Source: Ectocarpus siliculosus
Lineage: Eukaryota; Sar; Phaeophyceae; Ectocarpales; Ectocarpaceae
Direction of reading: 5' to 3'
Assembly (NCBI GenBank): GCA_000310025.1
Contig: FN649733.1
Location: forward strand, 180,778 to 244,777
DNA length: 64,000 nt
Shown: in pieces, positions 621-52,016 of the stretch
Layout of the letters: the number at the start of each line of letters is the position of its first letter
Numbering within the stretch: position 1 is the first letter of the stretch
Made by a program: the position numbers and the translations under genes
Notes under the pieces: generated by a model
The model's input: the letters and a program-made list of their open reading frames with translations, nothing else
Databases searched by the model: none
What the model was told of the DNA's origin: nothing

Positions 621-689
621 CGATAACCACTAGACCACTAGTCAGCGCTGACTAGTGTGGTCTAGTGGTTATCGTGCTTCTCAACACTC
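609..689. repeat. Second, smaller palindrome made of the same tRNA-like head
   Basis: The segment around 609-646 (TTGAGAAGCACGATAACCAC and onward) is repeated in reverse complement at 647-689, with AGTCAGCGCTGACT at the axis. It is the head of the larger element at 1-620 repeated back to back, so that element is flanked by further inverted copies. The right edge at about 689 abuts the reading frame of the endonuclease fragment, which marks it as an insertion boundary. Confidence 0.75.
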
Positions 690-1010
690 CCCCTTTCTAC
701 CAGGATGTAGTCGAGGATCGAGTATTCATTGCAAACTGCCCTTTGCCTGGTGAACTCCGGCTTATCGCATTCCCTCCTACCGTTCAACACCATCAGCTCG
801 TTGCTTCCCAAGAATTCAAGCAACCTCACTCCGTTGTCATTCACTTTGTCTTCTCCGTGCTGCCCGATCGTCTGTCCTCTACTGGAAGCTTTCCCTACTC
901 TGGAGTTGAAATCGCCCACCATGACAACTTCTCCCTTCCTACTGAGCCTCTGGACATCTTCCCCAATACGTCCAAAGTTCTCCTGCGCCTTGCTTGCGAC
1001 TTGGGGGGGG
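690..1010 (-). mobile_element. Endonuclease/exonuclease/phosphatase (EEP) domain fragment, probably from a non-LTR retrotransposon
   Basis: On the minus strand the frame contains MVGDFNSRVG (about 890-922), then NDNGVRLLEFLGSNELMVLN, and ends SILDYILVER at about 700. This is the normal order of the C-terminal half of the APE-like EEP nuclease used by non-LTR retrotransposons: GDFN with catalytic Asp/Asn, N-x-N-G, then the S-x-x-DY block. Upstream, AQENFGRIGEDVQRL fits the helix before GDFN. The frame appears to break near a run of C residues at about 1,005-1,013, and the fragment is cut at about 690 by the palindromic element. No reverse transcriptase is visible nearby, so this is a dead piece. 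A host EEP gene is less likely because of the truncation. Confidence 0.6.
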
Positions 1011-1853
1011 GAGGTACTTGTGATACAACCACACCATCCCGAAACTACGGCGACGGAACGCTACTTGGTGTAATGGGTAAGTTCGTGTGCCGACTCAAGT
1101 ACGGCATTGTCAGCCAGACAAGAGATGATTCACTGGAATAAGACGTGAAGGGACAGCAGTTCAGATCACCCAGTCACATGGGATGGGGGAGGGCGCAAAA
1201 CGCCGCGAGTGCACACGTTATTGGCATTCTACGTAAGAGCATCACGACACGAGCCTGGGGGACAAGGAGCGAAAAAAACAGATCCTTCGCGCGTGGCGAG
1301 CTAAAGTCTCTTTGTTCTTTGCGCTAAATGTGCTTGTGTACTTTACGAAACAGGCGGGAATTACACTTGTTTAGCCGTAATGTTACTGATTCCATTGCTT
1401 CGAGGACTTCGTTCTGTTGCGACCCCTTGGATTTTTCGCGCTTTTTCCCATACATTAACAATAAAACCAACCCATGGCACGTCCAGTTTGTCACAGCAAA
1501 CGCGAGGATGATGACCAGCTTCTGGTTCATCCTTGTAAAGCGTATAGCCTGGGTCGGCGAAAACTCGGCATGGCTCTCCGTCCCGGCATTGTGAAGACTA
1601 CGAATGTACGACATGCGTTTAAATCAGTATCCCCAACTTGGTACCCCCCTTCCTTTTCTTCCGGGGGAAAAAACATTCATCCGCGGTGCCTATCTACAGT
1701 TACGGTAGTTAGGCTAGATCACCAAACGTTTGGACGATGCGTGTATCTACCCCGGCCTAACTGTTTTCTGGGGTTAGGGGGGCTCGACGGGGACTCAGTA
1801 TTGAGTAGACTACAACCTCTTTTCGATGTTTGGCAAAGTGTTAAATGGTTTCC

Positions 1854-8701: not shown

Positions 8702-11700
8702 TCAGGTGAGCCTCTTGAGCGTGTCGACAAGTTCGGACATGTCATTCTCGTTCTTGTAGACATCGAGGGCAGCAAACACGACGGCGTCCTTGCTACGGTA
8801 TCTATCCATGATCACCACCGCCTGCGCCTCACTCATCACACCCACGCGCTCGAGCTGCTGGAGCAACTCCTGCAAATGTGAAAGAACGCGGGGTGCTGTT
8901 GTGCTGCTGCCATGTATAATTCGAAACACGAACAACGTCGTATCATGTGTGAGCTAACCACCAAATGCACATGATACCACGAACTCGGCTCGGAATCCCG
9001 TTGGTGCCGCTTTTTGGGTGGATCGTGTATTCTCGTTCACGTTGTTATGGCATCGCATATCCCTGAAAGGTGAACATCAGCCAGACTAGCTGCAGAAAGC
9101 AAGACACACCGCCGAGAGCGATTGGGGACAGCACAAAAAAACAGATGCTGCTGTACCACATTTATGCGTACCGCAGGAATATTGAAGTTTGCCCTCCGTG
9201 CACACTAAATGCTACGCTAAGCCGAATGGGCAGCTCGGCACCTGGAAGAGTCCTGCCTTGCCATCGAGCGTGAAATCGATGTTTCTTGTCTCTTCTCCCG
9301 AATTTGCAGTAGCAACGTCATTGTTGCTATCGCAGGAATTTTCGCCCATCGCCCTTGAGGCGTCAGGAACCTGGACAGGGGCAGTGAAGGCGAACTGCTA
9401 AGCTCAATCAGTCCCACCGAAAGGCCCGTTCACGGAGAAACACACACTAATTTGGGTTGTCGTCGCGGACAGATAAATACTCGAGTATGCATAAAACGAT
9501 ACAGTTCTGCAGCACACAAATTCAATGCAAACATCGCGCCATCCTCGAATGAATGTCGCGACTCCCCAACCCCCATAGGGGCCCTGCCTAGGCTACAAGC
9601 CTAATAGTTGGAGTCGGAAATACTGCACCGGCATTCGCGGAGTTACATCCCCTTAGCCTCGTCGTCGACAATGATGAATAATTACGTGGGTACCAACTGA
9701 GGCCAACGACATGGCCAGCAGACACTATCCGCAATACGTAGATATAACAGGCACCGGTGCCTCTAATAAAAGTCGGCGACGACTATTTGTGTGAGGGCAT
9801 GGGAGACGAATGCGCCCGGAACGCCCCAACCTTGACCTCTGTCATGCAGGCACAGATGAAGAAATGTAAGGCCAGATGTATCACTGTTGTATGCATCATG
9901 ACTAAGCAGGACCAGAATCCCTCCTTGTCTTGTCGGTAAAGGGCTCAGTATAGTTAAGTCACGTTGTATTCTTCCGATCAAGCAGGCGTTGCAACAAGCG
10001 GAAAAGGACCCACACAGAAAGTTACACGCTTGTCTTGCCTGTCCAGTCAGTCTAGACTCATGCTCGCGCTCCAGAACCAGCCTAGCCACTCTGGCAAACG
10101 TGTCTTCCAGCTCTTGAGCGTCCGAGTCCAGCCTTCGCAAACAAACATCAAGCGGCCATGTACCCCATGGGATGTTTTTCGATGAGACACGAGTTGAACC
10201 CGACAGGGCACACATACGCACATTTGGAAGCGCTTGAAAAAGTTGTCGTCCGATACATAGCAGGAGGCAGGAAGGTCACATCAACAGTGGTTCTCGTGCA
10301 CGGTTGCATGTGCCACGAGAGATGAGAGTAGTGCCTGGCCAACATCGTCTAAGCACACGCGACAAAGAGAGTCGGAGAAAAGAGGCGAGCTAGGATAGAG
10401 TCAATGTGTTCCGTCTTGCCGCTCATAAAAGACGCCTGCTTTGCCGTGCAGACACTCCCATCACATACGGGGTCCAAGTATCAACTCGAAATACCATGAT
10501 ACTGCGCAGGGACAGACCAGCGTCACTCCAGAAACGCAAATTTCGTCCCGCGGCACGCCAACCAACCTAAAGAGCTCCAGGGCCCCTTTCATGTTGACGT
10601 CCCCATTGGCAATCGCTAGCCGAAGCGCGGCAGCTTCGCTCTCGTCGAGCCCCATGCCGTCCACGATGCTGACAACATTCTCTGCTACCACAGCATCAGC
10701 ATCACTGCCTCCATCTTCGCCCATCTCAATGTTTGCTGCATTGTTTCCACTATCAAGCCTGGCGCTGCCATCACTGTCCTCGGAAGTTGCGGCATCATCA
10801 TTGGCGTCAGGAAGGGGCTGCAAGATCTGTGTGAGGAGCTGCGATGAGTTGGAGCGGCCGCCATCTGGGTGCGCTTCCATGGTCAGCATCGCCGGAGCAA
10901 TAGGCGGCGCACTAGATTGCAGGGCCGGCCAACGTCGGGAAGGGAGCGCGGCGGTACCAGAAGCATACGAAAAGTTCCCAAACACGAAGGGTAAGTCGTT
11001 GGCCATCGATGCTGCTGCTATTGCCATTGTCACTCTGTCAATACCCCGTTGTATATGCAAGGTGCTGATCCCAACCCTATTCGCGGGATATATTTTTTCC
11101 AATGCGTCGGCGGCATCTGTTGACAAGAGCTAGTACGGAAGCGCGGTTGATCAAAGTTGCAACAACCCAAAAAAATGAATCCAACGGCGAAAACCTTCGC
11201 AATGGACGAGACATGGCGGGGATGCAGCGAAGGGCATGGCAAGAATACCATGCCGCGGCGCAATTTCTGTACGACAAAATCTAGGCCATAACAGTCAGCA
11301 AACTTGCCACCTTGAACCCGTGTCTGTATCGTTACACTCACTCTTGCAGAATGGTCTTGATGGCTTCCACCAGAGAGGATACATCCTTGGACGAGTCAAA
11401 CGCTTCGAAAGCCGCCAAAGAATTGGGGTCCTGTATTCGTAAGTATGCCAAAGTGAACAAAGTTGTTTGAGGTGGAGAAGCACCATTGTTCGTATACTAC
11501 AGAGAGGAAACGGTAAGGCGACGCGCTTTCATGGAAGCGCAGCAACATATTGAAAACGCGGCAATAGCAACACCAGAAGCATGAGTCCTCGTGTTGCGTT
11601 CGTGCAGCATCGGAAGCCGCAGCCTATCACGCGGGCGACGACATGACGTCAGCCCTGAATGCGATGGGAAGTTGCGAGTCGCCGTAGGTTCCACGAGTAG

Positions 11701-14700
11701 AGCATCGTGAAAACCATGGTAGTAATTCTTGGAGTTTTGTAATCCAAATACCAAGCCCATTGTCGAAGCCTGGGATACACCACCAATGTGCCTCAAAACA
11801 CATACCTCCTGAGCAAGAAGCAAGAGCAGCCGTGTAGCGTCGGAGGCTGTCAGCACCTTCGTATCGTGCATCAGGAGCACCACCCGCTCTCGCCGGCGCT
11901 GCTTCTCTTCTTGAGCGCGTGGTTCTTCCATTCCACCGACTTCTTGTTCGCCGCCTTGCGTTCCCACGATTGCCATGAGAGCACTCACCAATGCGCCAAC
12001 ATCCTGTACCTCGCCGAATTAACGCGAGAGAGACCACAGACGGTGCCGCACTCTTCATCCGCTTGGGGACTTCATGTTTGCACACACTCTAGAAGCATCA
12101 GAGCTGATACAGCAAGTTCAAGTTTGGCAATGGCAAAAAAAACACCGGACGTTGCTACATTCCCAAGGACAAATTCTGATACGCCTCGGCAAAGATCGTG
12201 GTTCACAGTATTCTCTACAATTACATTTGCACGGCCAGCGGCAGCCTCACGCCAGTAAGGAGGCATCACCACCTTGTGTGTGCAACTATCATCGGTGGCA
12301 TCCTCGACTAGCCACACTATCATCACCTTCATGTCATAGTGGCCGCAAGGTATCGCGCAAGTAGGGAACCAAGACCGGACACTCTAAAAAGACAGCCGAA
12401 GGAGGCATCATGTTTGTTTCGAGACCCGGAGAAAACCCTCTGGCGCTTTTTGTCACATGGTACTCTACACACACCGTGGCGAGATTAACGAGTCTTAAAA
12501 TGAGGTATCATCAGACACCAGGAGCTACCTGCGAAGCGGCGTAGTCCTCGTAGGCTTGAATTACTGGGGGGTATTTATTCTCGATCAGCTTGGCGAGCAA
12601 GGCCGCCTCTTGAGCACCGATGCTCTTGTCTCCGGCCATGCAGTCGGCCAGCTCCTGCACATGCCATGCCACGAGCACATAAGGGAAACGACAATGACGG
12701 CACCGCTTATCAGTTCTCGCTGGGCAGCACATAGCAGGTGCATACTCCAACAGCAGTGGCGGCTGAAATTTCTAGTCAGGTACATGTGGCGGTGTATACG
12801 TCATTTTCCAGCCACGGCCTACGGCTAGGCACAGGTTTTCTGGACAACGACAACAGGGTTTTATACGGCCTATGACGTTTGGCAGGTGTGCGAGTATCAT
12901 TCAAGCATGATGGTTGTGTGTTTCCGAAGGAAGGAACTTGCGCTTTCCTTTCCTCTCCGCTACGTGCAAAATAGGCACGATGTAACTCATGACCGTGCTA
13001 GAGAAGGCACGCCTCACCATGAGCTCCACCATCGCCCTATCGTCGGAAACTTCGTTCTCATTCTCCTCTTGTCGTTCTCCATCCAATCTTTCCTCTCCAT
13101 CTTGCTCACTGTTGTTCTCCTCTTCCTCTTCATCGTCCTCTTCCTCCTCCTCTTCCTCTTCCTCATCCTCGCCTTCCCGGTCTTTTCCGTTTCTTTGAGA
13201 ACATACCGGACAAACAACAAGGTCACAAAACACTTTGACTTGATTAGACACTTGATTGAATTCCCCTTCCAATAGTGGGTGTATGGAAACCCAGCGGGGG
13301 GGACGGCGAATGTGTGGGATTCGTGTGAGTACCTGCGCAGCGTCAGGTTTAGGGTTGCGTTGCTCCAGTGTAAACTTTCCTCGCGAATACACTGGGCTTG
13401 GTTGTACCGTATTGTGCCGCGGCGCATTGGCTAATGGCTGCCGCGGCGACAAACAAGTTCAGTCACGACGTATCGGGCGGGCGAATACGATTCTTTCAAG
13501 CAGCGGGAGAAAGGTGCCGTGGGCTTTCTGCGTGTGGATTCTCGGCCATTCTTGAAATAGACTGCCGGGTGTGATTTTGGGTAACGATAAACCTTACCCT
13601 AACCCTAGCAGCTGCGTGACTGCGCCAAGCCTGGACTGACCTCTTGAGCATCTCCGCCTTCGCAATACCAGCAAACGCGTTCAGCAGCCTATCCCGGTTG
13701 GAGCTCCCCTGGAGTGAGAAGCAATGCCAAATGACATGAAAAAAATCAACGGGCGCATCCATACAACACAGCCCAACAAGACATGCTAAGCCATGCGCGG
13801 CAATGGGTCGGGAAAGAAAACGACACGGTACGTTGTCAGACAGACACGGTAAATCACGCTGCACTCTGACCGGAACGGGTCGGTCCTAAAGCGACAGGTT
13901 TCCTGGCCGACGGTAGCAACAGTGAGAAGGCGGAGAGTCCCTCGGCCGCCGTGGAGCTCATGAAGGACATGACAAGACGACGTTGGCAGCTCTATCCATA
14001 AAATCACTACACGGTGGAATGAGGGAATGCGACGAAATCCAAATATTCATACATATCCACGTGTGCTCACCTCGAATTCCTCCAGCGACTTCAGGATAGC
14101 TTGAGTGCAGCCGGGAGAGGGGGTCGCTAGACAGAGGGCCTCCTCACGAGAAACCTGAATGTGTTGCCAATGGCCGGCACGTGGGGTTATTAGGCACAGC
14201 CGTTTCTGAAGAAGAATATATGGTACGAAGCTCGATCGCAGGGAAAAATGGATGTCCTAGGTCCGCCCCGAGCAACCTGCCTTGACGAGCTGCGACGTGC
14301 ACCGCGTCAAACAGAAACCGAGACGATGCTTGCTCGAGACGGGGCTGAGAGCATCAACTCCGACACTGTGTACACGTGGCGAAGTGAAATAGATTTGCGA
14401 CCAAACGTTGCGCACGTGGGCGAGGTATTGCAGCGGTCACCTAAACCCGAACTTCAAGCAATCTGCCAACACTTCCTAAACAACCACCAACGCTGTGCGG
14501 TACATACTGGTTGCACCGGCTCATCGACCATGCGCCGAAAGAAGCCGGCCAGTGTTCACTCGCCTTGTTGCTTTGCAACAGAATTTGCGCTGATTGCGTG
14601 GCGATGGCATTCACAGCCGCCGACATGGACTTGCGAAGCTCTGCAGTCGACGCCACGGCGGCTCTCGCAGCACTCGTGCCAGACGACGGAACAGACGAGC

Positions 14701-17700
14701 GCGCATTCGCCGGCAAGGTCCTTGCACTGATGAGCGACAGGATTTGCGCAGAAGGTAGCAGAAATGATATAACAACCGAAATAGCGGCCTTGTTACCGGG
14801 TCCACCCGACGAGACAGCAGAGATGTACCTCACAGAACGAACCAGGCTCGTCTACTACGTATCCAATTCCTACAGTGGGGTCCTGCAGGCAGAATAAATT
14901 GAGTGGGGCAACATGCAGCACCGCGTTGCGCACCTGAACGGGTTGCTCATAGTCGTGGACAACGGGAATGGCGTGGTGCCAGCCACCAAACAGTAGCATA
15001 GCACACATTGACTCACGGTAGGAAGGGCCTGACAGCTAGCCGCGCGATGCGCACGAGAGAGTCTATGGCATCTTCTTCCCCCCCCCCTGTCGTGTATACG
15101 CCCCACGCAGCGTGCACCAAGTCCTGAAGCCGACCACTCTCGCCGTTCAAGCCGCTCTCAAAGGCTGCACAGATCACCTGCATGGTGTGAGGTAGCCAAC
15201 GTTATCTCGAACCAGGCGTGGTCTCGCAACTTTGGCCAGCCCCTTGAAATCGGTGGCTGCAAGATTGATCCTTGAAGGTAACGTCGCCGTAAGCCCTATT
15301 AACCTCTCGGTAGGCCGGCTTACGAATCGTCGAGAGCAATATACGACTTACAACGCGCCCCATGTCTGCCCGTGCTGGATTCGAAAATACGGTTTGGGAT
15401 GATACCACAGAATAACGCGACGTACTTCGTTCAGGAGCAGCTATCAATATTTCCGTGCTGTAACATTCCTTGGCGATGTGATCCTCACCCTTGCATCGCA
15501 CATGTCCATCATATCCTTTTGCACCGCCAACGTTACAAGCCTCTGGAACTCCATGAGAGCCGCTGCCCGGTCCGCTCCTTCGCCCACGCCGTCCTCGTCC
15601 GCCGTAGTCGCACCAGAATCGCGTGTAGGTGCACCCACCCGGCAGGCCCGTCCACCTTTTCCCCGAGTATCATCGAGACCGGCGGCAGCAGCGCTTTCGG
15701 CAGCAGTGGCCGCTGCAGCGCTGGCTTTGCGAGTTACCTGCAGGCGTTGGGAGGACCCAGCGACCTGGCCGGCGTTTCCAGACTCCTGTTCACCTCGCGA
15801 CCCTGACTGTCCTGCGACACGTCCCGTCTTCCACCCGAGAAGGAGAGAGATTGGGCGGGACGAAGCCGTGGTGTTGCTGTCCTCTTGATGTGGTCCGATT
15901 AAAACGACGAACGACTTTGGTGGTCAAACCCTTAACCAAGCGTTGACAAGCGAAAACGCCATGACCTGCTTCAACGTAACCAAATGATAACCTTCCCATG
16001 ACATGTGACGGTGGCGGAACAACAGCCCCCAAGGGCGCCAACGTGTTTCGCCCGACCGAAGATTCGAGACGCAGCGATTCACAATGTGAGGGTAGCGAAA
16101 GGCCTAACCCGAACATGTCCAATGTCTTACTGGCATGACAGGAACCACTTGCAGTGATTCACAACATGTCGGCTGGAGTCAGCCCACTATGCAGGGTAGC
16201 ATCAACAGGGCGCAGTACAAACCAGCCACCTCCGCGAAACAAAGGACCAGGCCAATACTCAAAGCCGAGCATGGTCACGGGTGATTCAAACGCCATGGTT
16301 TTGCCCCTGACTTCTGGCTGCAGACATACCTCGAAGCGAGCCGCACGGGCAACGGTATCGTACAGCTCCGCCGCTTTCCCATTCTCCCGAAAAAGCTGCA
16401 AATTCACCGAGAAATGCACGAGAGGAGAACGATCTTTCACTCGATGTGAGCAGCAGCATGAGCTAGTATGGGGCGACTGGTAGCACAGGGGAACAACAGC
16501 ATCGCGAGGACTATCGAGATCAAATGTTGGGTCACGAGGACCCACATCAAATGTGTAGTGATTGGCAAATACCTAAAAATTTCCTTGAAGCCGACCCCAG
16601 TCCCTCAAGAAAGGCCTAGTCACTTGAGCGAGAGAGTCCTTCAGCAGAGACGTATTTACCGGTCCTCTCCCCCCACCAACTAAAGCGAAAAAGCCTATAC
16701 CACCGCCGCCACCGACTGCGTTGTGCTTCACCTAATTCCTCGAGTATGCAAAAATACGCTCACAACCTTTCGTCCAGTTTCGAAGAACCGCGCGAAAGCA
16801 ATAATCAACAAATGTCCACTGTCGTGCCGGGCATTCAGGCTGAACCACGAAGCACGGAAGTAACCCTTTTAGCTTCAACATCAAGTGCAGACGGAAGGGC
16901 GGTTTATGTGCACACCTTGAAAGCCGCGACCAGCACGGGGTTCTCTCTCGAGATCATTGTGTTCAGCACGCTCGCCTCCCGGGGTCCCAGCAGAGACTCG
17001 TTGGTGAGGTTAGTGGCTACTTTCAGGATGGTGGCCTGCATGGCATCGTGGTCTGCCTCCGTCTTCAAGACGTCATTGTCGTCGTTGTCGTCAGCAGCAG
17101 AGACTGCAGCAACAGCAGCTGGTTTCACGGCGCCGTCTTGAGCCCCGCACAGCTGAGGTTATTCAAAGACCAATAAAACCAAGACGGGGGTGCTGCTGAT
17201 TTTGAGGCCTGACTGGGGCCCTACGGTTGTACTTGAAATTGCCCCGCATTTTGCAATCGGTGTGTACGACCCACAAGCACGTCTCCTCTCGTAGGTCGGC
17301 TGGTTCAGCACGATTCATGCCGTCAAATGGGATGAATAGAACCCGTTATTAAAGAGCCAGAATTTTTCGGGGATATCTACATGCCAACTGAACCACCCGC
17401 CGCGGCCGGCCGGCGTATGAGCAGCACGATATCCGCGGCACCAAACACAAGAACGCATGCCGTCTATTCCGTCTCCACGGACAAGCAAGCGTTGATTTGA
17501 TGCGCATATACGATGGCGCAATTGTTCTTTCCTAAGGACCTACCTGTTTGAGCGACTCGGCCAAGCGCACAGGGTCTTGATCCTCTTCGTACACACCGAA
17601 AGCATCTGAAACAGCTTCGTTAGACACCAGGATCAGGTTCTGCAGGTACACGAGCTGTTCGTCGTCCACCTGCAAAGGAAAGGAAATAGCTTAGGCTTCA

Positions 17701-20700
17701 GCAATTCGTACACAAATGCTCTTCGCCGGAAGACGCATTTTATTGCCATTAGGACAAGAATAATCGACGATGAATAGCAGTAACAGCAGCAGCCGCAACA
17801 GCGACAACCACCAGACGGTCGAATTAATTATCACCCCAATGCAGCACCATTTCGACATGAGAAAAGTCCAGATTGTTTTTTATGCACCCATGGCCGTCTC
17901 GTTGCTCTAATCTAGCCCACCAGAGCTTGACAAGAAAAAAACATAGCGCATGGCACGGCGAATGACGTAAATGGCGCAAATTCGCTCCTTGGTGGTCTGA
18001 GCGGTTGCAGTGCTAGTTTCGGGGAATTAGATGCATGGCGACAGAATACAAGAGCACACAGAGTAACGTCGAATATGTAACACAGAGTAAGGATTGCGCG
18101 TGTATGGAGGGTGGTTGGTCGACGGACTTTGCACACAACGAGTTCACCGAGAAAATTATCGTCATCACGGAGGAAGAGAGTCGCATGAACCAGCTGCAAC
18201 GACGCCGACTAACTCCGTCTCGAACGGTACCGATCGAACATTGGTATCACAAATCTCGCGGCTTCGAACAAATTATTGGTGTGTAGAGCAGATCGTGCTT
18301 AGGGCGAGAAAAACCCTCATATATCGGTACCGCAACAGCCCCGCATACCGTTTTTCAGGAACACCGCGGTGAGCCAGGTATATTGCGTAGACGACGTGTA
18401 GCAGGAGAAAGCGGCTATGCATTTAAGTCGCGTTGTTTCCACGCAACGAAAAGGTGGAGCAGGCAAGCACCATTGTGGCAGTAACAGTTAAAAAGTGGCA
18501 GAGTTAGTAACCACGATACCTCGTCGGCCTGCTGAAGCACCTCTACCATGTCCAGCATCTCTCGCTTCGCTTCCAGCAGTCGCATCCCCTGCTAGCAAAA
18601 TCATCGCCACCACCCGCGAAAAAGCATTAATCGGCATCGTGTGTGCTATCATGTCACACGGCATTCACGCATGGATTTCGTACGCATGGGCGACACACAC
18701 AACAAGGAAAACAGCGGACAGATGGATTCAAAGACAGAAGAAAACGTAGAGGCCGACACGCGCGATATATCTTGATTGATGCGCTATGCCCTGTACTGCA
18801 CAGAAATGTGGGAGGCCGGACATGCATGGCGCTGCTGCCGATACACAGGAGTTCCCGCTTTCGTCGAAGGTTGCATGCTGTCGAATTCCTACTTGCACAT
18901 GGGTCACTGAATTCATGCGGAGAAGGCAATTATGTGCTCATGTCACGCGGCAGATGAGTACGCCCTTGGGTTCGTCAAATCGTTTGGATTAACTGATACA
19001 TATGTAAATAGCAAAACTGCACGGACACGTAAGTGGACGCACTACCACAACAGAGTACAGCTGAAGCAATGTTAGCAATACCTGTGGGCTGCCTCTTCTA
19101 TTGCTTGCGATATCCTTGAACAGCGCCGACAGGTAGTCCACGTCTTGGCTACGTAAGGCCACGGCGAAAGCGGCGTTGATTACGGCATCCCCAGCCACAG
19201 CACTGTTCTCCAGGGCAGTTCGGTCGTCTTCCGCCAGCAAGCCCTGAAACACACACATGTAACGTTTAGTAGCAGCCCTTGTTGGATGCCTAGCGCAACC
19301 GCAAGTACATGGTGGAGTTGGGTCCAATCTGTAGGTATACATGGTACCACGATTTATGACGATATGGGCTGCTGATTTAGCACCCGATGTTTGATCGCGA
19401 CCAAAGGCCAGGCTGTCAATCATGAATACGGACCTTTGTTGGGCACCACGGCATCTGTACGCAACCAATCGGCATGACTTTGCCCGTGCAGGTTCTGGGA
19501 AGAATTTCCCGGGAAGAAATTTTCCGGGAGACGAAGACGAGACACTCGGACAACCACCACACATTACATCTGTACAAGCGGCCTAGCGGCATCTTGGTGG
19601 GGATTTCTGTTGATATCGATTCATTCCCGTACAAGAAGAAATAACAAACCCAACATGAGAAATAACAAGAAGCGCAGGTAACAACCGATTCACAGCAGAG
19701 TATTTGAAGCAATACTCCAGGCCCTCCCGTAACGTGTCGTAGTCTGCCTACACACTAGAGCAGGGGGTCTTGTTGTCAACTTGACTATTCTCGACGGTGG
19801 ATCCTACATTGAAAGTCATGCGACGGATGAACGCCACGATCCTCGCTTTATCGCCCATCCCCTTCGCTTCGCCGTCCTCATCCTCCTCGACATCCTCTTC
19901 CTCTTCGCCAGGCCTCCACCCCTGTTTTTCTGTTTCTCCCTCTGCCCCCCAAAGCGTCCCACAAGCTGACTTTTGACCACCTCCGGCGCCTACTCCGATT
20001 GCTTCAGCGGATGAGAATGCGGTGACAGAGATTGGTGAGGCGCCACCCAGTGGAGACCCTGTGCGAAAATGATCAAAAACCGATTTCCGATACAAACAAC
20101 AAGCGACAGCCGGTTAGCGACAACTCTACGCTAGGGTGGACACGAATATTGCGCAGCCCGATTGCTTGACAACAAGCTCCTGAAGGATTTCAAAAGGTTT
20201 TACATAATGTCGATAGCAGTACACTGCCGCTAACTCCGAAACACCGAAAGATGCCCATGCAGCCAAAACACTTTTGCAGCATTGGAGTACGGTTGCAACG
20301 AACAATATACCCCGGGACATTGGTCGTACGATGAAACAAAGTGTCGGGAGTTGCCCTTATTCCTCGCCTTTGAACGATTGCACATCTGAGGTCTGACCGG
20401 GTCATGCGGAAACTACAAGTTGGCAGATCTACCATCTCTTGTCATGTTTCGGTAGTTCTGCACACAAATTTGTGCTGTGCGTCGGCGGACACGCAGACAT
20501 GCATCGACCAATCTTGTACAGAGCCCATGGACTCGTCCAGGCGGCACAACATGGGAGAAGAAGTCTCCAAAACGAACGCTTTCCTTTCTTCTGGGAAACG
20601 TGTTATTCCACTTCCCCAGTTTTGCCGCCACACATAACTACGTCAAGACCTTTGACACCGCTTGTGCACTTCACGCAGACCACGGTTTGCTTTGATACCT

Positions 20701-23146
20701 GCAAGAGGCTGCAACGCTTTCGCATACTACCAGGTTGGGGGTGCAGGCGGACGAATATCAGGCCCGCACAATCTAAAACCCAGTGACGAAGCCCAGTCTG
20801 GGCATCAAACATCACGCGTCTTTGGTTCCACATCAGCAATGCCAATCTTTAGGCAAAGGTAACCTGTAGGGCCGGAAAAGACAGGATACCCATCCCAACC
20901 GTCGCACGAGGGAATATCCAAAACGCAGTATTTGAGCAGCACACCCTTCAGTCTACTGATACAATTCATGTGACGAAGCACATCAGGATTTCAGCGCCCA
21001 GGTTCGGGTCGAACGAGAGCCCACAGCCATATCTCTACTTCCGGTGAACGTTTAAACGACGTCACAAATCCTCTAGATCAGGTTGGAAAATTCCGGTTCT
21101 TCATGATAGCTGGAGCTGTTGACAAACGGCCATGTGTTCAGAGAGAAACACACAACCCAGGGGCGGCTACAAGAGAACAAGCGGGCGATTGGACTGAAGG
21201 GCGTACCACATGCGGGACGAAATGCACCCACGTGTTTTCTGTCGTCAGGAAAGAAATAACACACTGTACCTTGGGTTGGAGTCGAGGGTATTCCGGGATG
21301 ACTTTTGTTCCTCTTCCAGGAGACTTCCTTGTCACTCAAGAGTAGGGAATAGCTGCGATCCCCGAGCATCTGCCAGGCATCAGGCACCGGTCATCTGACG
21401 TTCATCTACAGTGCAGCCTTGGTCTATTCACTCACGAGTGAATCCAAGTACCAACAGCACTGCCGTTGGCATAGCTGACAGGTGGTGTGAAGCTTACGAG
21501 AATATCACATTCTTTGTAGAGAAGACAGGCCTTGGGTGCCATGCGTTGAGCCGCCAGAACGCTGTCAACAGAACCGTGTCAGGGGTGCGTCGAGGACAAC
21601 TTCACGCGTAACCTGATTGCTAGTATCTGTCGTTGAGCGCGTGACCACGACCTCAAGAACGCACCGCAGCACAGCAAAGCGTAGCACGCAGCAGAGGATG
21701 CGTTGGCAAACCAGGCTCGGGAAGCGGAACCATGCGCTTGTTTGAAACGATACCCATTGCTTGGTTTTCTCGGCATTTACCCGTCATATTAGTTCCCCCC
21801 TTCCCTGGTACCTCTTCCTCCCCTGTCTGGGTGACTAGATCAGTTGACACATAACGATCACCCCCGGCCCGCGACCAACTCCAGTATCAGTTCTGCCGCG
21901 GATTGGGAATCCGTCGTACCGCAGGCGGGTCCTCGCTTGGTGTTTTTTTCTTAACCGTCTATCCTGGCGCCAGTCTACACCTTTTGGTATATACTTCATG
22001 GGACCGATCTCATGGGTCAGCCGATGGTCACACACAGGGTAGAAACTAAACCAGCTATTCTTTGTTCTTCACCCTTATGTCCCACCGCACCCCCGGTGGT
22101 GCCTTCGATTTCTTACGCGAGGGACAAGCAGTCAGTCCCTACCCTTTTTGTGCATACTGCTGTACCCCCGAACTATGTAGTTAATCGCTTACCGCCGCAG
22201 AAGTGTACTTTTCTCTCTCCCGAGAGAGATATACACCCACACTGCTGCAACATGTAGTTGGTTTACGAGGTCACCCACTCTACGGTATCCACAATGTATC
22301 TTGGTGGATCTAGATCACGGAGTACCAATGCCCTATTGCTACAACTGGAGTTGATTGATACACGTGGTATCAGTATAGCACCAAAAGGAGATTTACCTCT
22401 GGTGAATCACCAGTGACAACAAACAAGCCGAGAACCCACACGTCCTAGACATAGGCCCGATATCAAGGCATCGGTAGCTAAAGCAGTGTGCACGAGGGTT
22501 GGAGCTCACTTGGATATACAGCAGTACACAGATACGGCGGTTGCGGCTTACAATCAACTTTGCAGGCGAGTGCAGCAACACACCAGTCTACCCGTCAAGG
22601 ATGAAAACGACTATATATCAATCTTCCATGTGTACCTGCGGCGCTCGGCAGGCCAAGGACAAGGGTACGACGACTCCGTGCTCGTGTTTCAGTCCAGAGT
22701 CATCGGAAGCGGGGGCTAGGAGGCCCACGACATGCTGTCGCAGCTCGAATGCTGCCTGAAGCAGGCTGTTTCACCCGAGAGAGAGACAGACGCCGAGGGC
22801 AAAGAAAAATGGTACATAGTGTTCGTAGACATGTCTTGCTAGCCATGATTCTCGAGTCCGAATCCGCAAACGGTGTTACCAATCAATCCCTCCCCCCGGC
22901 CCCCACCCCCCCTCTCCTTCTCTCTCTAGCTCTCCGAAGATGAAACGTTAGCTTAATCCCACCGACGGCCTTGGTACGGATCCGTGAAGGAATGCGACTG
23001 GTGTGGTATGTACACTTGTCTACAGGGTGTAGAGGGCAGTGTGTCCGCGCTTACCGTGAAAGTTCTGTTGGATTCAATCCGTTGAAAAGAGCTACGAAGT
23101 GGGCATGCTCTCCGTGTGTAACCCGAACAACCTTGGCTTGGTCCAT
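8702..23146 (-). CDS. Large multi-exon protein built of about a dozen degenerate ~45-residue helical repeats; family not recognised
   Basis: Minus-strand exons: 23146-23055, 22765-22636, 21612-21575, 21561-21498, 21369-21270, 20058-19808, 19747-19686, 19243-19082, 18588-18520, 17669-17544, 17152-16916, 16395-16330, 15737-15489, 15177-15034, 14154-14071, 13708-13641, 13192-13018, 12654-12529, 12003-11806, 11430-11342, 10911-10567, 10132-10039 and 8869-8702 (stop TGA). Every junction agrees in phase except 19686/19243, where a small exon is probably missing. The start is the ATG at 23146 (MDQAKVVRVTHGEH). The product is about 1,040 residues with no signal peptide or membrane segment. The repeat looks like L-x3-EA-x2-L-x(9-12)-VLAAFEVY-x4-D-x3-L-x3-L-x2-I, for example DPNSLAAFEAFDSSKDVSSL (exon 11430) and AALDVYKNENDMSELVDTLK (exon 8869). 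Acidic linkers separate groups of repeats. An intron often falls just before or after the AAFE helix. Function is unknown; an alpha-solenoid scaffold is inferred from pattern only. Confidence 0.75.
10039..10132 (-). CDS. Repeat-array gene: exon completing the GALELF repeat, with a GC donor
   Basis: The previous exon ends ...GALELF plus AG at 10567. This exon supplies the missing base after GCGAAG| and continues LDSDAQELEDTFARVARLVL, giving a complete repeat across the junction. The exon ends ACTGGACAG|GCAAGA, a GC donor of the usual strong type, leaving phase 0. That matches the phase-0 start of the last exon at 8869. No GT donor in the right phase is available. Confidence 0.7.
10567..10911 (-). 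CDS. Repeat-array gene: long exon with acidic linker and one repeat
   Basis: The exon opens after CAATCTAG| in the phase required by the preceding exon (one base completing a split codon). It encodes a Ser/Ala/Asp-rich linker with the acidic stretch MGEDGGSDADAVV, then the repeat core GLDESEAAALRLAIANGDV and GALELF, ending at TTTAG|GTTGG. An antisense frame of 230 codons on the plus strand is a shadow of this exon. The acceptor is the only one found in the correct phase, but it is not a strong consensus. Confidence 0.65.
13018..13192 (-). CDS. Repeat-array gene: Glu-rich linker exon
   Basis: After TCTCAAAG| the exon gives NGKDREGED followed by an almost pure Glu/Asp tract of about 20 residues, then further Glu/Asp/Asn/Gln sequence to DDRAMVELM|GTGAGG. 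The plus strand is correspondingly TCC/CTT-rich. The one-base start completes the codon left by the exon at 13708-13641, and the phase-0 end fits the exon at 12654. The acidic tract separates repeat groups and is expected to be disordered. Confidence 0.7.
19686..20058 (-). CDS. Repeat-array gene: acidic linker exon and following short exon
   Basis: The exon at 20058-19808 starts after CGCACAG| with two bases that complete the codon left by the exon ending at 21270. It encodes a Gly/Ser-rich stretch, then GEEEEDVEEDEDGEAKGMGD and KARIVAFIRRMTFN, ending at AAT|GTAGGA. A short intron of about 60 bases ends TGTGTAG|. The next exon, 19747-19686, reads ADYDTLREGLEYCFKYSAVN and ends at CG|GTTGTT. 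That end phase does not fit the next recognised exon (19243), so either the donor is wrong or a small exon of about 20 codons between 19,250 and 19,680 was missed. Confidence 0.6.
21498..21612 (-). CDS. Repeat-array gene: two exon pieces separated by only 13 bases
   Basis: After AATCAG| the frame gives VTREVVLDAPLT and the first two bases of a codon (21612-21575). Thirteen bases, GTTCTGTTGACAG, follow. Then one base completing the codon and VLAAQRMAPKACLLYKECDI (21561-21498) lead to a strong donor CTC|GTAAGC. Joined, the pieces form a normal repeat. Read straight through, the frame hits a stop (TGA) inside the 13 bases. The interval begins GT and ends AG, but it is far below the size handled by ordinary spliceosomes. 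It may instead be a frame-breaking insertion. Confidence 0.6.
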
Positions 23147-23414: not shown

Positions 23415-26400
23415 ATGGAAATCTACATCTTGGCAGGACAGTCAAACATGGCTGGGCGAGGCAACTGTGAAGAGTTGCCGGCCCGGTACCAGTCCAACGA
23501 TAATGGTGAGTGCAAGCAGCTGCATGTTTGCCAATGCGTGCAACATGTCTGTACCTCCTGATGCCTTGCGACCTCAGGAGGGGGAGGTCCTGCCTGTTGA
23601 GGGTTCGGAAACGGCTTCATCGTGCGGCCGTCGGTGCTCCGTATGTATTGTTAAAGAGCCTGAAGATACTCCTCGACGGGGACGAACTCCTGCACGGGCC
23701 CGCCTTGCGGTACTTTTCCAAACTCCCTCGTACATTCCAAATCTCACGCATTACCCTTACGTTCCAAATCTCACGGGGTTGTCAGTTCTGCTGTACAGTG
23801 TACAGTAGTACGAGGCCGGAGTGGGGGCCTTCCACGTCCTCGGGATTGCCGTGGGGGGATGCCATGAATGTACGAGGGAAGGGGTGTAAAAGGCCGCAAA
23901 CCAGAGGGACCCTTATTGCATGACTGACTCGCGGGAAAGTGTTGTATACATACCCTCAAGTACAGCAGCTCAACTGCTGTTTACGAAAAATAAGAACAAA
24001 GGACTAGAGTACTACTGTAAGAAAATACAGCTCAATCTCAGCCACAATGTAAGAAACGTCCCAATAAGAAACATGATCGATCGTGCGATACCCCATTACA
24101 TACTCCGAGTACGAGACAACTGTTGCTGGGGGAGTGTGTCCAACAAGAAACGTCCCACCAACCACCCCCATACCGAGCTGAACAGCAGTGTTTTTTTTCT
24201 TACGAGGGGGAGAAGAGTGATTATTGTCGCGGGTCCCCACGCCTCCGAGCTAGCTACTCCGCGCCTCCGCCGGCTGCTTTCCCGCTGCTGCATGAGTTTT
24301 GGTGTTTTTTTGTATTCTTAGCCAGAAACAACAAAAAAGAAATAAGAGAATCAGGAGGATGCGAATAAGAAACGCGTTGTAAGCAAACGAATGACTTCGG
24401 CTGGTCCTTCGACCCAAAGTATGGGATTGAGCCTCGACCCGATTTTAACGTTTCTTATCTCCGGGCCCGTACTGTATGCATAGTCTACATGTATATGCAT
24501 TGCCTACGGTTGGGGCGAGGTAATCAGCCGCGTGGTACGTTAGCAATAGCGATCGACACCAACTGCTGTAGTCTAGACTACAGCGCTTACTCTGCGATGC
24601 TCGTTGACAGTATGTAGCATACCGTACCAGTAGAGCGAGGAGCCCCGCCCACACAGCGCGCCTTGGTGTAGCTAGGTGCACAAGGCACAGACGTGCGGCG
24701 AGCGCGAAGAGGTGCGCTTCTGTGCCGGGGGGAGACGGCCCCTGTTGGTTCGTACACAAGAAGAAAAGTGAACAATCGTTAGTCAGCGGAAATATTCACA
24801 CTACACAGACAGCAACACGCTGCCAAGCACCGGCCCCTGAGCCCCGCCGTGAACACATGTGGCTCCAAGCCAATACGGGTAAATACGTAGTTTGTTTTTC
24901 TGTTGATGCCACGCACTGGCGAAGAACTTCATTTTCACCTCACTTGGCATAATTCAAACTCGCGTTTCTAGTTCCTTGGTACAGTGAAGGGCCCTCAATA
25001 ACGCCGGCACGTGCCCGGCGCATCGACCGGCGCTATTCAGAGGAACCGCGCTGTTCAATGCACAGAATGACTTGGTGATTCAGGCTGCGCTCGGCAATTT
25101 CACCGGCGCTATACAGGGCCGTCGGCACTAATTAACCGGCAATATTGACGCCCCCCCCTGCTGTACTTCGTGTTTATTTGGCTATTCCTGTCCGGAACCA
25201 TGGTTCAGGAATATCCACGGAAGTGTCGTTGGTATTTCAAACTCTGCTCCCGTTATCTTGGCGCGGAAAGAATCCGATAAATGGCTGTTCCGTGGTTAAT
25301 GTTCCACAAATACGACGTCTACTGTATTCCGACTGTGTGCACACCTTGGTGTGCGCGCACACATATACACCACTGCGACACACTCCACACGGCACGTTGT
25401 TGTAGAGGAAGAAAAATTCGAGACACGGGTGACCTACATAACCACTACCTGCTGCCAGTGAACTGGGGTGAATACGCACGTCTGCGCATAGGCTATGGTG
25501 TGGGTGGGATGTGTTTCAACGAAAAGGTAGAGCGACCGACACACACAGGCACAGCGAGCGTGCGCCTTTCCTTCTCTCCGACTGGGCAGCTGAAGTACCG
25601 CATGCACGTATTCTGGACGGACAACAAGACACGCGGCGCACTGTAGCAGACACAACACAGACGAGGCACACACCACCTGCGACTTTCAGGAGATCCCTCT
25701 CGCGGTAGTTGCTTATACTGGTGACACAATAACGAAGCCTCGATGAACCCCTGGCCGAAACATGCAGCCGATTTTGGAGCAAGAGAGAGGATATGGATGA
25801 AAGAGAGACTCATGAGGAGGACTTCTTGCGTGCTCACGGTGCCCGAAGAGGTCCGGGGCTGCGGGTCTACAAGAGATTGTCCTCGCCCCGTGGGTTGAGG
25901 GCTTGGGTCCGTTCTCTGTCGTTCTTTGCCTTTGGCCGAGATTGTCAGCTGCTACTACAGTACATGCAGATGGAAGAAGCGGCTGACGGGTGGAGCCGTT
26001 GGGTTTCTAGGCGGAGTGTTGGTTGCTGTGCTGCTGTTGCTCATCATCGGCGATATCTCACGCAGGAGGAGGGGCGGAACCACCTCCGAAGTAGAAGCCA
26101 CACTGGCTTGCATGCACGGTAGCTGTTCGCGGTAGCAGCCGGGGGCTGTTTCGGCACCGGTGTGTGTTGTACCCTCGTGCGAGCTACCTTCCCTCACGGG
26201 TGGAGGTACAAAACGCTAAGGGTCCTTCCCGGATAACTTTGTAATCAGGCCAAAACACCCCTCTGAATATTTATGTCGGAGCAAAGATCCACCCCGAAAT
26301 TCCCGAACCATGCTCCACAAGGGGGTTTAGCATACTCTTTGTCGCACCCCACTTTCCCGTTGGTTCCAAGTCCTGTAGTCGTCACGGACACACATACGCG

Positions 26401-29400: not shown

Positions 29401-31741
29401 AGCCTGTACTTGAAGGGGCCTGCCCAATTGAGAGAGGGTTTCACTCTTAGGACATGTGCATCGCAAAGTGAGTTGTTACCTCGCTTCCGCTCCTGGCCTA
29501 GTAGACAGCGCTAGTTCGTGTGTACACAGAGGGAAGAGAGTGCTGAACTCTTCTCGCATACAAAATCGAAGGCACAGTACCGCAGGAGGGGAGGGTAGAG
29601 AGGGGCTCTTCTGTGTGACCACGGTTGGAGTAAACGGCACTAGTGCTGTGAGGGCTGATTTGAAGTGAAGACAAAAAAAAAAGCGCTCGTCGCGACTTCG
29701 CGAACTCAAAGTAGGGGAATTAGGAGCAACTGCAGCCCTCCATCCGGGAGGACGGTTTTGGGACAACCCCAAAGAGGGATATGATTGTTAACTAACATGT
29801 CTGCAGTGCCTTCAGATGTAAAGTTGGCATCAAACACGGCACACATGTGGGCCCGACGGCTGAAGCGATGGGTGAACAGTAGAGTGTAGGCGTTGCCTCA
29901 CGGCGGCACGCCTGGTCCAGCGGGAAGAGGTATGGAGAGGATGGGCCAGCACACAGTGTGACGCGATGTTTTTCGAGCTTGACACTTGAGGGAATGACGA
30001 GAGCTACCGGCGAGTGCAGACGCTCATGCCGAGCCACCAATAGAAGTTATCTAGTAAAGCGAAGATGCGGGAAGTCCTGAGATGGCATAAGGAGTTAGCG
30101 TGGCAGTTTTGATGATCCAAGGGCGCATGATAATCAGGACATTGCATTATTTTTGGCATGCCGTTCAATAGATGGGCTAGTCGTTCTGACGACGGTCGCA
30201 CTGAAGAAGATGCTGCAGAAATGGGCAGGTCGTTGTAGGTTGCTGTGCTACTGTAAAATATAATTGTGGCTCTTATGAGTGAAGACGCGGCTCCTGTCGG
30301 CTAGCTCGCGGGTTTCCGAGAAGAAAGGGCGTTGGTGTGTCGGCGTACCACGAAAACTATTCTCCCTGAGAGTTGACGGCTTGTCGAGAATCACGTATTG
30401 CATGAGGTGCCGGCATGCAGCTTCGTATTGATGCTCGCGATGCGAGTCAGTTGTGATGATATTGGGCAGAGCGGTACGCACCCGACCATTGCATGTATGT
30501 AGCAGATATCGAACGTGGGTATTCTCTCTCTTGGATTCCCTCGAAACCACGTTGGTTTTAGCTTTTGTCGCTTCGCTCGCTTGCGTGGTGACCACTCAAT
30601 AGCACGGGACACATTGCCCGGGCTATCTCAACAACTAAATTTCAACTGACAATATACTTCAAGAGTAAATTCGCGTGGATCCCGGGCTACTCGCTTACGT
30701 GGGCACGAAAGCAGATGTACCCGCCCCATGATGATGTCCATATCCTTGAACACAAGATATGTTGCATCGTGCTGCTTGCACTTGTAGCGCCGACTTTAAC
30801 CCTGAAAATATCGATGGACACGTTGTTGTGCTCTCGGTACTTTCTAAGACTTCAGTTTGAGTACAATTTTATTGATACTTTGCTGAAGCAATTCGCTCGG
30901 ACCACGCAAGCGGTGATTTGGAGAGTCTCCGATTACTACATCGTGTGCGTATTCGCGCCCGTATTCCTGTGTCCTTGGCAATTCTTCTAGAATATTCTCG
31001 CTTGGCTCGTGACTGCTTTCGTTCTGCTGGTTTTCGACGACGGCAGGGTGAAACGGATGCGGCGAAAGAGGACCGTGCTGAAACGTACGGCGATCGCTTT
31101 CAGACGCTGATCGAGGACGTCAGGGGCTTGGGATATCCGGATCTGAACATATTTACGGTTGCTGTCACCGGCACGACAGCCCGTCTTCCATACCTCCAAC
31201 AGGTGCACCCTTGTCTGGCGTTGCTGACGATCTGATTACTTCACCTGCACTGCTTGAGACAACTATCCGCACTGTATTGTACTCTTCGTCTTTGCGAAGA
31301 TGGTTTTCCTCGTGTTGAAGTATTCTCTTTTGGAAGGACTCGAATCACAATTCGTACGTCACTTTATGAACTGAACTCAAATTGCCCCATGTGCCTCAGC
31401 AACAGAGATGGAAAAAAGAGCAGAGAACCTGTGAAGCAGCGCAACAACCCAACGACCCGCCGTTTGGCAGTTACCAGTTGCTGCTGTGACGTGGCCACAC
31501 CACATGCGAGCTAACCTGCTAGTGATGCGCAAGCCAAACACAAACATCGCGCCTGCTAGTATTGTCTGTGCTGTGAGATGCTGAATCGAGCACATGGAAC
31601 CGAAGGCCGCTACTTACTCTGTGCGTATGTATGAGATTCTACAACATTCGGGAGTGTACCCTACACCGTAGACACCCCGATATTTTGTCAAATTCAGCCA
31701 TGTGCAACAACGATGTGCAGCCACCGTCCGTGGGATTTGTG

Positions 31742-49446: not shown

Positions 49447-50111
49447 AACAAAAATACGCCGCGTCTGCTGAGATCAGCATCTTTGTATTTCTGTTGCCCC
49501 AGGCACAGGTGTGAATCATCGATGATCCCTCCCTACACACCGAAGAAACAGCGATGACAATGACATCCGCCACGAGCTGTACGTGTGGTTTCCTTCCCTT
49601 GCCAGTGCTGTCTTGCCCCTTCCAGCGGTGTTGCGTGTTTGGCTGGGTGCTTCCCCTGTTTTTCCTGGCTTGAACCAAGCAACTACGTGTGTGCGTGTGG
49701 GAGATCTCCGTTTTTTTGTTTCTCTATTACCTCTCTACAACTCCCCGCGGGGAAAGGGGTACAAATATCCTATGATTTTGGGGACAAATGCCTGTCAAGC
49801 ACGGGCATCTGTTGTCGGACGCGACGAAACCGGTGTGACGAAGATTGTCCCAATTTGCTCCCTCCTCACCAGCCAGAAGATCGTAAATCGGCGCTCTAAA
49901 GACCTCGTTCTGGTCGAACAAAGGCGGTTATTTTCGGACGGTCCATAATAAGGCTGAAATCGCCGAACGGCCCCTACATCGCGTTGGTTGGAAGAGCCAG
50001 ATATGTAGAGCCTATTTTCCCCTCCTGGGGGTGATGGGCAAAAACGTTGGGAGACAAGAGAGCTTGCGCGAGAGTCGGCCACCTCGAAGAATTTAGCCGT
50101 GATGCCAAGCG

Positions 50112-52016
50112 ATGCAAGACTCCTCCAGTAGGGCGGTAGTCGCAACAGAATCTCAGGAGGAAACACAAGAGCGAGTGGCCGCTAACGACCCTTCTTCCAA
50201 TGCCCAGCCGCGAGAGGTCTTCAACTCTGGAGATGGCGAGGCAGACCAAGCGCGGGGCGGTGGCCTAGGGGACACATCTTCTAGTTCTAGATACAGCTCT
50301 GACGACAAGGATATAGGCGAAGACAGCGACCCAGCCAGAGAATCTCTGCCACGAGGGGATTCCCAGTGGCGCCCTCGGAGGAAGGCCATTACGGTCAGGA
50401 GTAATCTTCTCCTGTCTCAAGATGCTTCAAGCAACGGCGAAGGCGGTAGTAGGGTGAGCCAAAGCAGAGGCACTGTGAGGCACCAACCGGAAGATCATGA
50501 CAGTAGAGGCCCTGCGCCACAGCGTGCAAGAGTAGACTGGGATAATGAACCAAGAGGTCATACCTCAGGCAACGGACAGGAAGACGATGACGTCAGCGAT
50601 GCGTTGTTGAGCTCGTCCGTGGGCAATCAGAGGGGTGGCGCGGCTTTCCCCGAGGCAGATGGCGTGGCTGAATTTGACGACGCTCCTAGTGAGATGCCTT
50701 GTGGGGCCTACAGTTTTGACGGTGCTTTTGGCGGTGTGGCGACGCCCCCCCCGGAAGATGGTGTAGAAGAACATGAGGACAACGTGCAGGATATGAGGGA
50801 TGTGGACGTTAGTCATGTTGTAGGCCTTGACGGTGGTGTGGAGGAGGCGAAAGGAGAAAGATGTACCGAGGATCCGGGAAACGTTGTTGGCACTCCCGAG
50901 GGTACCGTAGACGAGCGCCTGTGGTGCCGACAGGATGGATTTCCCTATTCTGTCGATGGAGTTGGTGACGATGGTAGCGGCGGTGACTTAGTGATTGCCG
51001 GTGCAGGCGCGAGCGCCGCCGGCGTTCACCGGTTGAAGAGAGGAAGGACATGTGAGCAGGGACCCGTTCAGGATACACGGAAGCTCGACAGCGCGACATT
51101 GCAGGTTGGCCTTAGGGCGATGGATGTCGGGGGGTCTCGTTTTCATGATGGTGGTGGCGCTGGTGACACGTCCCCCGACGGAGAAGGCTTGGCACATCCT
51201 CGGTACAATGGACGGGACACGACTGTGCGGCGGTTAGGCCGTGCGATATCGTATGGCGGTGGTGCAGACGACCCCGGACCGGAGGGAAATGCTAAGTATC
51301 CGTGCGAGGGTGGTGTTGATGGCAGTGGTAGTGGTAGCGGAGATAGTTGTTGTCGTGTAAACGGGAGCGACTCTGGTGGACATGGTATGGAGACAGGCAG
51401 GACAGAAACCACGTCCCCTAGCGACCGGGGGGTGGAGGGTGGCAGTATCCAGAGGGGGTATAGATCGCGGGGGCGAGGTGAGGACCAGAGGGGAGCTACG
51501 CCCAGGATGGCTTGTGAGGCATTGCTGGTCGGCTGTGGGGATGGCCTCAAACTTAATGACAACATGGTACGAGGCAGTGAGACTGCAGGTAGAGCTAGTG
51601 TGAGGGGCGGAAGCAGTGCGAGTGAAGGTAGAGCTAGTGGCCGACCTCGATTTGGGCTCGCAAGGCCCGGGGAAACGGGGTCAGGGTCAGCCGCTGGAAG
51701 CAGCTCCGTACGTGTTCCCAGGGTCAGTTTGGAACCCCAAAGTACGATTAGGCTGCATGGAGCGGGCGTCAATGTCGCCGCGGCGTACGCAAGGTCTCAG
51801 TTCAAAGCAGACGCAATCCGGAAGATGGGCAGTACAGTGGCCGTACGACGGAGGAACGAATTTGGGCGTCGTACGGGACTGACGTGGTCGGTTCTGCCTG
51901 ATGGCATGGGGGGGACACGATCAGGAGGCAAGCTCTGTCCTACGCCGGATGCCGTATTTGAGGCGATATGGGAGAAGTATGGGAGTGCGTGGGAAAGCTT
52001 CGTGTTACAAAAGTAG
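50112..52016 (+). CDS. 634-codon single-exon ORF; low-complexity acidic/Gly-rich protein, function unknown
   Basis: The ATG at 50112 opens a frame of 634 codons ending in TAG at 52016, by far the longest in the window. The N-terminal ~100 residues are Ser/Asp/Glu/Gln-rich. The middle is rich in Gly, Asp and Val with many GGV/DGGG and DDV stretches. The C-terminal ~80 residues look more ordered, with LTWSVLPDGMGGTR and VFEAIWEKYGSAWESFV. I see no catalytic motif, zinc knuckle, signal peptide or membrane segment. The absence of introns, unlike every recognised host gene here, and the repeat-rich setting suggest a transposon-borne gene such as a gag-like or accessory ORF. Codon-level selection cannot be judged by eye, so it may also be an expressed orphan gene. 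Confidence 0.5.
   Translation: MQDSSSRAVVATESQEETQERVAANDPSSNAQPREVFNSGDGEADQARGGGLGDTSSSSRYSSDDKDIGEDSDPARESLPRGDSQWRPRRKAITVRSNLLLSQDASSNGEGGSRVSQSRGTVRHQPEDHDSRGPAPQRARVDWDNEPRGHTSGNGQEDDDVSDALLSSSVGNQRGGAAFPEADGVAEFDDAPSEMPCGAYSFDGAFGGVATPPPEDGVEEHEDNVQDMRDVDVSHVVGLDGGVEEAKGERCTEDPGNVVGTPEGTVDERLWCRQDGFPYSVDGVGDDGSGGDLVIAGAGASAAGVHRLKRGRTCEQGPVQDTRKLDSATLQVGLRAMDVGGSRFHDGGGAGDTSPDGEGLAHPRYNGRDTTVRRLGRAISYGGGADDPGPEGNAKYPCEGGVDGSGSGSGDSCCRVNGSDSGGHGMETGRTETTSPSDRGVEGGSIQRGYRSRGRGEDQRGATPRMACEALLVGCGDGLKLNDNMVRGSETAGRASVRGGSSASEGRASGRPRFGLARPGETGSGSAAGSSSVRVPRVSLEPQSTIRLHGAGVNVAAAYARSQFKADAIRKMGSTVAVRRRNEFGRRTGLTWSVLPDGMGGTRSGGKLCPTPDAVFEAIWEKYGSAWESFVLQK

Follow-up and report, generated by a model that had tools for sequence, protein, structure and literature searches.

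A multi-exon gene encoding a large acidic protein with a degenerate repeat predicted to form four-helix domains, a candidate multivalent scaffold

The closest described systems for the protein analyzed here are small helical domains. In passages of PMC7614096 and PMC7788954, the VEL domain and the harmonin-homology hub domain are presented as interaction folds, and head-to-tail polymerization by the VEL domain is shown in the former. PMC7614096 also names the four-helix domains of Zuotin/ZRF1 and DAXX as the nearest relatives of VEL. Part of PMC7618248 describes the VEL domain as conserved through the green lineage, and part of PMC8048344 describes the harmonin-homology domain (HHD) as five helices bundled compactly within some 70 residues. 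Here, we describe a minus-strand gene in a window of 64,000 nucleotides (the whole stretch of DNA that was analyzed) whose product carries a degenerate helical repeat. We read this product, with a probability of roughly 0.5, as a large acidic multivalent scaffold built of an unnamed four-helix domain.

Exon borders were placed by eye from the sequence, with phase fit as a partial guide. For the twenty exons running from 20058 to the TGA at 8702, each of the 19 junctions has matching phase (phase 0 at 15 of them and phase 2 at 4), although this agreement alone is no independent test because the borders were partly fitted to it. With two further exons at the 5' end, which are in phase with each other, 22 exons were placed in total:

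E1, 23055 to 23146, minus strand: 5' exon with candidate start ATG at 23146; donor ACG/GTAAGC; in phase with E2; no repeat-profile match
E2, 22636 to 22765, minus strand: 5' exon reading LLQAAFEL, a doubtful helix 3 fragment (profile score -2.6); phase fits E1
Ea, 19808 to 20058, minus strand: acidic linker; followed by the 60-nt intron with an in-frame TAG
Eb, 19694 to 19747, minus strand: U1 helix 1, by alignment
Ec, 19082 to 19243, minus strand: U1 helices 2 to 4; profile match; three helices predicted by AlphaFold2
Ed, 18520 to 18588, minus strand: linker and U2 helix 1
Ee, 17544 to 17669, minus strand: U2 helices 2 to 4; six-frame profile E 2e-17, with U2 itself in the profile; leave-one-out 0/2000
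Ef, 16916 to 17152, minus strand: acidic linker and U3 helices 1 to 3
Eg, 16330 to 16395, minus strand: U3 helix 4
Eh, 15489 to 15881, minus strand: low-complexity linker and first part of U4, placed by open frame and phase; its start makes this the least certain internal exon
Ei, 15017 to 15177, minus strand: remainder of U4, a unit weak in leave-one-out (48/2000 shuffles)
Ej, 14564 to 14726, minus strand: linker and U5 helix 1; GC donor
Ek, 14071 to 14154, minus strand: U5 helices 2 and 3
El, 13641 to 13708, minus strand: U5 helix 4
Em, 13018 to 13192, minus strand: strongly acidic linker (the 59-residue linker before U6 is 56% Asp + Glu)
En, 12529 to 12654, minus strand: U6 helices 1 to 3
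Eo, 11806 to 12009, minus strand: U6 helix 4, charged linker, U7 helices 1 and 2
Ep, 11342 to 11430, minus strand: U7 helices 3 and 4
Eq, 10567 to 11034, minus strand: most of the 118-residue linker and U8 helices 1 to 3
Er, 10039 to 10132, minus strand: U8 helix 4; GC donor
Es, 9242 to 9370, minus strand: linker
Et, 8702 to 8869, minus strand: last exon, complete U9 and stop TGA; four helices predicted by AlphaFold2

There is no internal stop in the spliced 20-exon frame, which comprises 1,094 complete sense codons, or 1,095 residues when the split first codon is counted; read in its other two sense frames, the spliced sequence meets 37 and 42 stops. G+C content at codon positions 1, 2, and 3 was 0.663, 0.449, and 0.635 in the spliced exons and flat in the introns (0.509, 0.516, and 0.501). 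Several repeat units became whole only once exons were spliced. Given the codon-position signal and the units completed by splicing, both of which are independent of phase, the gene appears to be real: a spliced, multi-exon gene whose single frame encodes some 1,095 residues or more is well supported. An exon search between 22636 and 20058 (2,577 bases) gave no convincing set, so the protein length of at least 1,095 residues is a lower bound and the 5' end is incomplete. An earlier note on this DNA, made from its letters, had proposed a spliced gene of about 23 exons and about 1,040 residues with a phase chain broken once. The large, spliced protein and the chain were borne out, and its size and exon number are revised here. 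Over the 19 junctions from 20058 to 8702 we found no exception: the exon ending at 11342 joins straight to the exon starting at 11034 in phase, and the break seen earlier, which came without an exon list, may stem from a short open segment near 11118.

GC donors open 2 of the 19 introns (after 14564 and after 10039), a share that seems high. The intron from 19807 to 19748 on the minus strand is 60 nt long, a length divisible by three, and contains a single in-frame TAG, so it could be misread; it is far below the gene's other introns in length. That the locus is a pseudogene, or an artefact of choosing open segments, is very improbable: the by-eye borders, the 2,577-nt gap, the TAG in the short intron, and the two GC donors are what such a reading would draw on, whereas the unbroken phase chain, the codon-position signal, and the completion of units by splicing all speak against it.

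Upstream of the candidate start lies a plus-strand SASA (PF03629) carbohydrate-esterase gene, matched at 23415 to 23507 and 31044 to 31205. From the ATG at 23146 it is 269 bases to the start of the first of these stretches, which makes the two genes a divergent pair; PMC7784034 reports tightly spaced pairs of this kind to be common in Ectocarpus. Three more SASA matches were detected on contig C2 of the same genome. The light-harvesting family PF00504 has at least 87 matches in this genome, counted per exon, as in a photosynthetic eukaryote. Genome size, introns, and gene layout suggest that the host is probably a brown alga. Elsewhere in the window we observed the following:

665 to 1060, minus strand: probable LINE-type remnant, seen as a fragment of an endonuclease-reverse transcriptase (PF14529, E 9.9e-5, below cut-off)
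50103 to 52016, plus strand: open frame of 637 residues, Gly/Asp/Ser-rich, with no Pfam match at E 0.01
55890 to 56504, plus strand: probable remnant of an LTR retrotransposon, with an integrase zinc-binding domain (PF17921, E 1.1e-11)

Nine repeat units were found in the assembled part of the protein. The degenerate helical repeat reported earlier was thus recovered in nine copies rather than at least 11; these counts omit the doubtful fragment in E2. Each unit was scored in a leave-one-out test against 2,000 shuffles of itself, which control for composition and not for general helical pattern. Unit positions (borders set by hand), the number of shuffles reaching each score, and the linker to the next unit were as follows:

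U1, residues 86 to 150: 27 shuffles; linker of 17 residues
U2, residues 168 to 224: 0 shuffles; linker of 38 residues
U3, residues 263 to 322: 0 shuffles; linker of 107 residues
U4, residues 430 to 502: 48 shuffles; linker of 44 residues
U5, residues 547 to 610: 36 shuffles; linker of 59 residues
U6, residues 670 to 728: 1 shuffle; linker of 25 residues
U7, residues 754 to 809: 0 shuffles; linker of 118 residues
U8, residues 928 to 987: 0 shuffles; linker of 52 residues
U9, residues 1040 to 1095: 0 shuffles

An earlier eight-unit version of the test (whose U4 to U8 are the present U5 to U9) gave, in present numbering, 0 for U2, U3, U7, U8, and U9, 1 for U6, 8 for U1, and 13 for U5. When the eight-unit profile, built from hand-cut units, was run over the window in all six frames, which hold 2,438 open segments at least 15 residues long, matches at E <=0.01 fell only inside the exons of this gene; since the units themselves made the profile, only the silence outside the gene is informative. 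U4 was added, and U1 and others were lengthened, only after this search and the eight-unit test. On these results the repeat is real, with U2, U3, and U6 to U9 strong and with U1, U4, and U5 plausible from position and pattern. One leucine was invariant in the eight-unit alignment and no column in the nine-unit alignment, in keeping with the earlier impression of almost no invariant residues. Intron positions shared between units, examined as a test of exon duplication, were not significantly enriched (2 exact coincidences versus 0.81 expected, P 0.17; 3 within one base versus 0.98 expected, P 0.07). Several of the linkers are acidic, as had been suggested from the letters, or Ala/Gly/Ser-rich, with disorder judged from composition alone, and the net charge count of the protein (K+R minus D+E) is about -94.

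No profile in Pfam-A or NCBIfam matched the assembled protein or its units over a cut-off; NCBIfam is built for prokaryotes, and HMMER filters drop most matches above about 0.1. HEAT, ARM, TPR, and IQ were absent among the Pfam-A matches listed, in keeping with the earlier view of an unrecognized family. The best of these matches, CtsR_C (E 0.038), was rejected as below cut-off, as were TylF (E 0.18) from the same scan; CDC45 (E 0.073), ORC_WH_C (E 0.18), DED (E 0.21), and four weaker rows for the assembled protein; TylF (Pfam, E 0.13) for eight units; and the NCBIfam rows for eight units (E 0.033 to 0.14). An EF-hand reading of the AF-x-V-Y-x4-D motif was also rejected: no such profile was listed to E 10, and the loop is too short, the gap between helices 3 and 4 by eye being about four residues too few for the 12-residue EF-hand loop. 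Two profile searches of the PDB returned 7 sequences (best E 0.00099) and 20 sequences (the seven best at E 7.6e-5 to 8.5e-4). These were designed or engineered helical repeats and TALE-type proteins, and they were discounted because such scores sum weak matches of repetitive chains; no stretch passed on its own. Cactin (E 2.3), the single row of a single-sequence PDB search, was likewise set aside.

Protein queries for the nine units (U1 without helix 1) found no second copy of the gene in the genome (189 Mb, 492 contigs) and one chance-level match elsewhere (E 0.96); such queries work on single exons and may overlook distant copies. A search with U9 through viral contigs and prokaryote genomes yielded 76 and 273 pattern stretches, respectively, with 0 relatives among them. 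RAC_head (PF16717) had no match in the genome, and control genomes likewise had none, so this result is uninformative. Six repeat motif strings were found in none of the papers searched. Orthologues in other algae are expected. The gene would define a four-helix repeat unrecognized by Pfam-A and NCBIfam, in a protein otherwise filed as "hypothetical."

U9 is the sole unit encoded whole by one exon, and AlphaFold2, supplied with 12 aligned pieces of the window, each from one exon, predicted it to be a compact four-helix domain (pLDDT 93.5, pTM 0.72) with helices at 2 to 8, 14 to 25, 29 to 41, and 44 to 54. The U1 exon without helix 1 was modeled at modest confidence as three helices (pLDDT 72.1, pTM 0.40), and Foldseek gave no match to this partial model at E <=10. 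The copy carried by the last exon is thus predicted to fold by itself into a four-helix domain some 55 residues long, and we infer that the remaining copies fold like it. Given linkers of 17 to 118 residues and a U9 that closes alone in the model, the units look like beads on a string and not a continuous solenoid. The repetitive alpha-solenoid envisaged earlier is not supported. As an account of the whole protein, an adaptor whose tandem helical repeats stack into one superhelix in the manner of HEAT or ARM proteins is quite unlikely: the repeats are indeed tandem and helical, but linkers of 17 to 118 residues, several of them acidic or Ala/Gly/Ser-rich, part the nine units, U9 is modeled as a domain by itself, and no HEAT, ARM, or TPR solenoid profile appeared in the Pfam-A list to E 10 for the assembled part.

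Structural searches place the predicted fold as a small helical bundle of a common kind. Foldseek returned 25 PDB matches to the U9 model at E <=10, all above E 1 and 0 at E <=0.001. Viral models, searched by fold, yielded 22 matches at E <=10 and 0 at E <=0.001. The top PDB row was RTEL1 HHD2 (E 1.8, TM 0.48), and the VEL domain of plant VEL1 ranked eighth (E 3.1, TM 0.63). A second structural aligner applied to 28 chains ranked VEL1 VEL first (Z 5.7 and rmsd 2.5 across 55 residues, against Z 3.4 for the entry that follows), although for helical bundles a Z under about 13 may reflect merely a common arrangement. Neither the Zuotin/ZRF1 nor the DAXX domain appeared in the rows for these 28 chains, which excludes nothing. 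The leading place of RTEL1 HHD2 by E-value would suit an array of alpha-alpha-hub-like beads, of harmonin-homology or RST type, that bind short helical motifs of a disordered partner. We regard such an array as unlikely, since E 1.8 is not significant and the second aligner gave RTEL1 HHD2 a Z of 2.4 over 43 residues. The earlier suggestion of an undescribed protein class is supported in part: no library family passed a cut-off and no second genome copy was detected, but the modeled fold is a common helical bundle that aligns best with plant VEL.

By fold, then, the unit resembles VEL in the models, and we do not claim family membership. Were the gene to encode a true VEL protein, each chain would carry nine VIN3_C polymerizing domains and could assemble head to tail with itself. 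The first place in the second aligner is consistent with this, as is an L-x-D-T motif in helix 4 common to VEL and three of the nine units (U3, U8, and U9). Several comparisons argue otherwise. Alignment of units with VEL by hhalign was not significant (E 0.17 over 1 column and E 0.13 over 7 columns, the VEL side combining two PDB sequences with one consensus sequence). Shuffles scored equal to or higher than VEL1 and VIN3 under the unit profile in 461 and 237 of 5,000 cases, respectively, and in the reverse direction 176 to 1,580 of 2,000 shuffles equaled or bettered the nine units under the VEL profile. VIN3_C (PF23380) was unlisted by hmmscan for the assembled protein (E <=10) and for eight units (E <=1), and a genome-wide search with it gave two matches, both below cut-off and both on other contigs. 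In VEL, a basic pair in helix 2 and an isoleucine in helix 3 form head and tail, whereas no conserved basic pair was seen in helix 2 on inspection of the sequence alignment of the nine units. In VEL proteins, PHD and FN3 domains precede the VEL domain, which lies at the C terminus; a Pfam scan of the 1,094-residue assembled part and the 74-residue 5' piece detected neither. With the Z of 5.7 also lying in the range that may reflect a shared helical-bundle arrangement, a true VEL protein is improbable.

Literature on the VEL domain in brown algae, stramenopiles, diatoms, or Ectocarpus was absent among the matches listed. Part of PMC7784034 reports Ectocarpus to be without Polycomb complexes. 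Conceivably, an alga that is not of the green lineage, and is perhaps Polycomb-free, could carry nine tandem VEL-type head-to-tail polymerizing domains in a single chain, a polymer linked in advance that would build condensates for some role outside Polycomb silencing; we consider this picture improbable. If the likeness to VEL reflected true homology, the polymerizing fold, described as conserved through the green lineage, would be older and in wider use.

The reading that we favor is the large acidic scaffold. Its linkers may hold the domains apart as a string of beads, and the surface on offer would differ from bead to bead, since the nine units have no invariant residue and their consensus positions are mostly Leu, Ala, and Ile plus one Asp. 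Many weak contacts could then gather several partners, or several copies of the protein itself, and the protein might act as an organizing scaffold or condensate builder, a mode likened to that of small helical hub and polymerizing domains such as the alpha-alpha-hubs and VEL. That the nearest structural neighbors among the chains compared are interaction folds (the polymerizing domain of VEL and, more weakly, the harmonin-homology hub) was counted in favor of the scaffold. If the beads polymerize or act as hubs, the protein would be a scaffold that organizes assemblies; a brown-algal host would place it in a lineage whose complex multicellularity evolved apart from plants and animals.

Among known systems, the VEL domain of VIN3, VRN5, and VEL1 (PF23380 VIN3_C; PDB 7o6v and 7o6w) is, like the U9 model, a compact four-helix domain, but its similarity to the unit in sequence and profile is not significant. 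The harmonin-homology domain and the alpha-alpha-hubs (RTEL1 HHD2, PDB 7wu8) are small all-helical interaction domains, a build that the unit would share; here the match is weak. The alpha-solenoids of the HEAT, ARM, and TPR families likewise consist of tandem helical repeats, but theirs are stacked and contiguous, whereas the repeats of this protein are predicted to be four-helix beads joined by long linkers.
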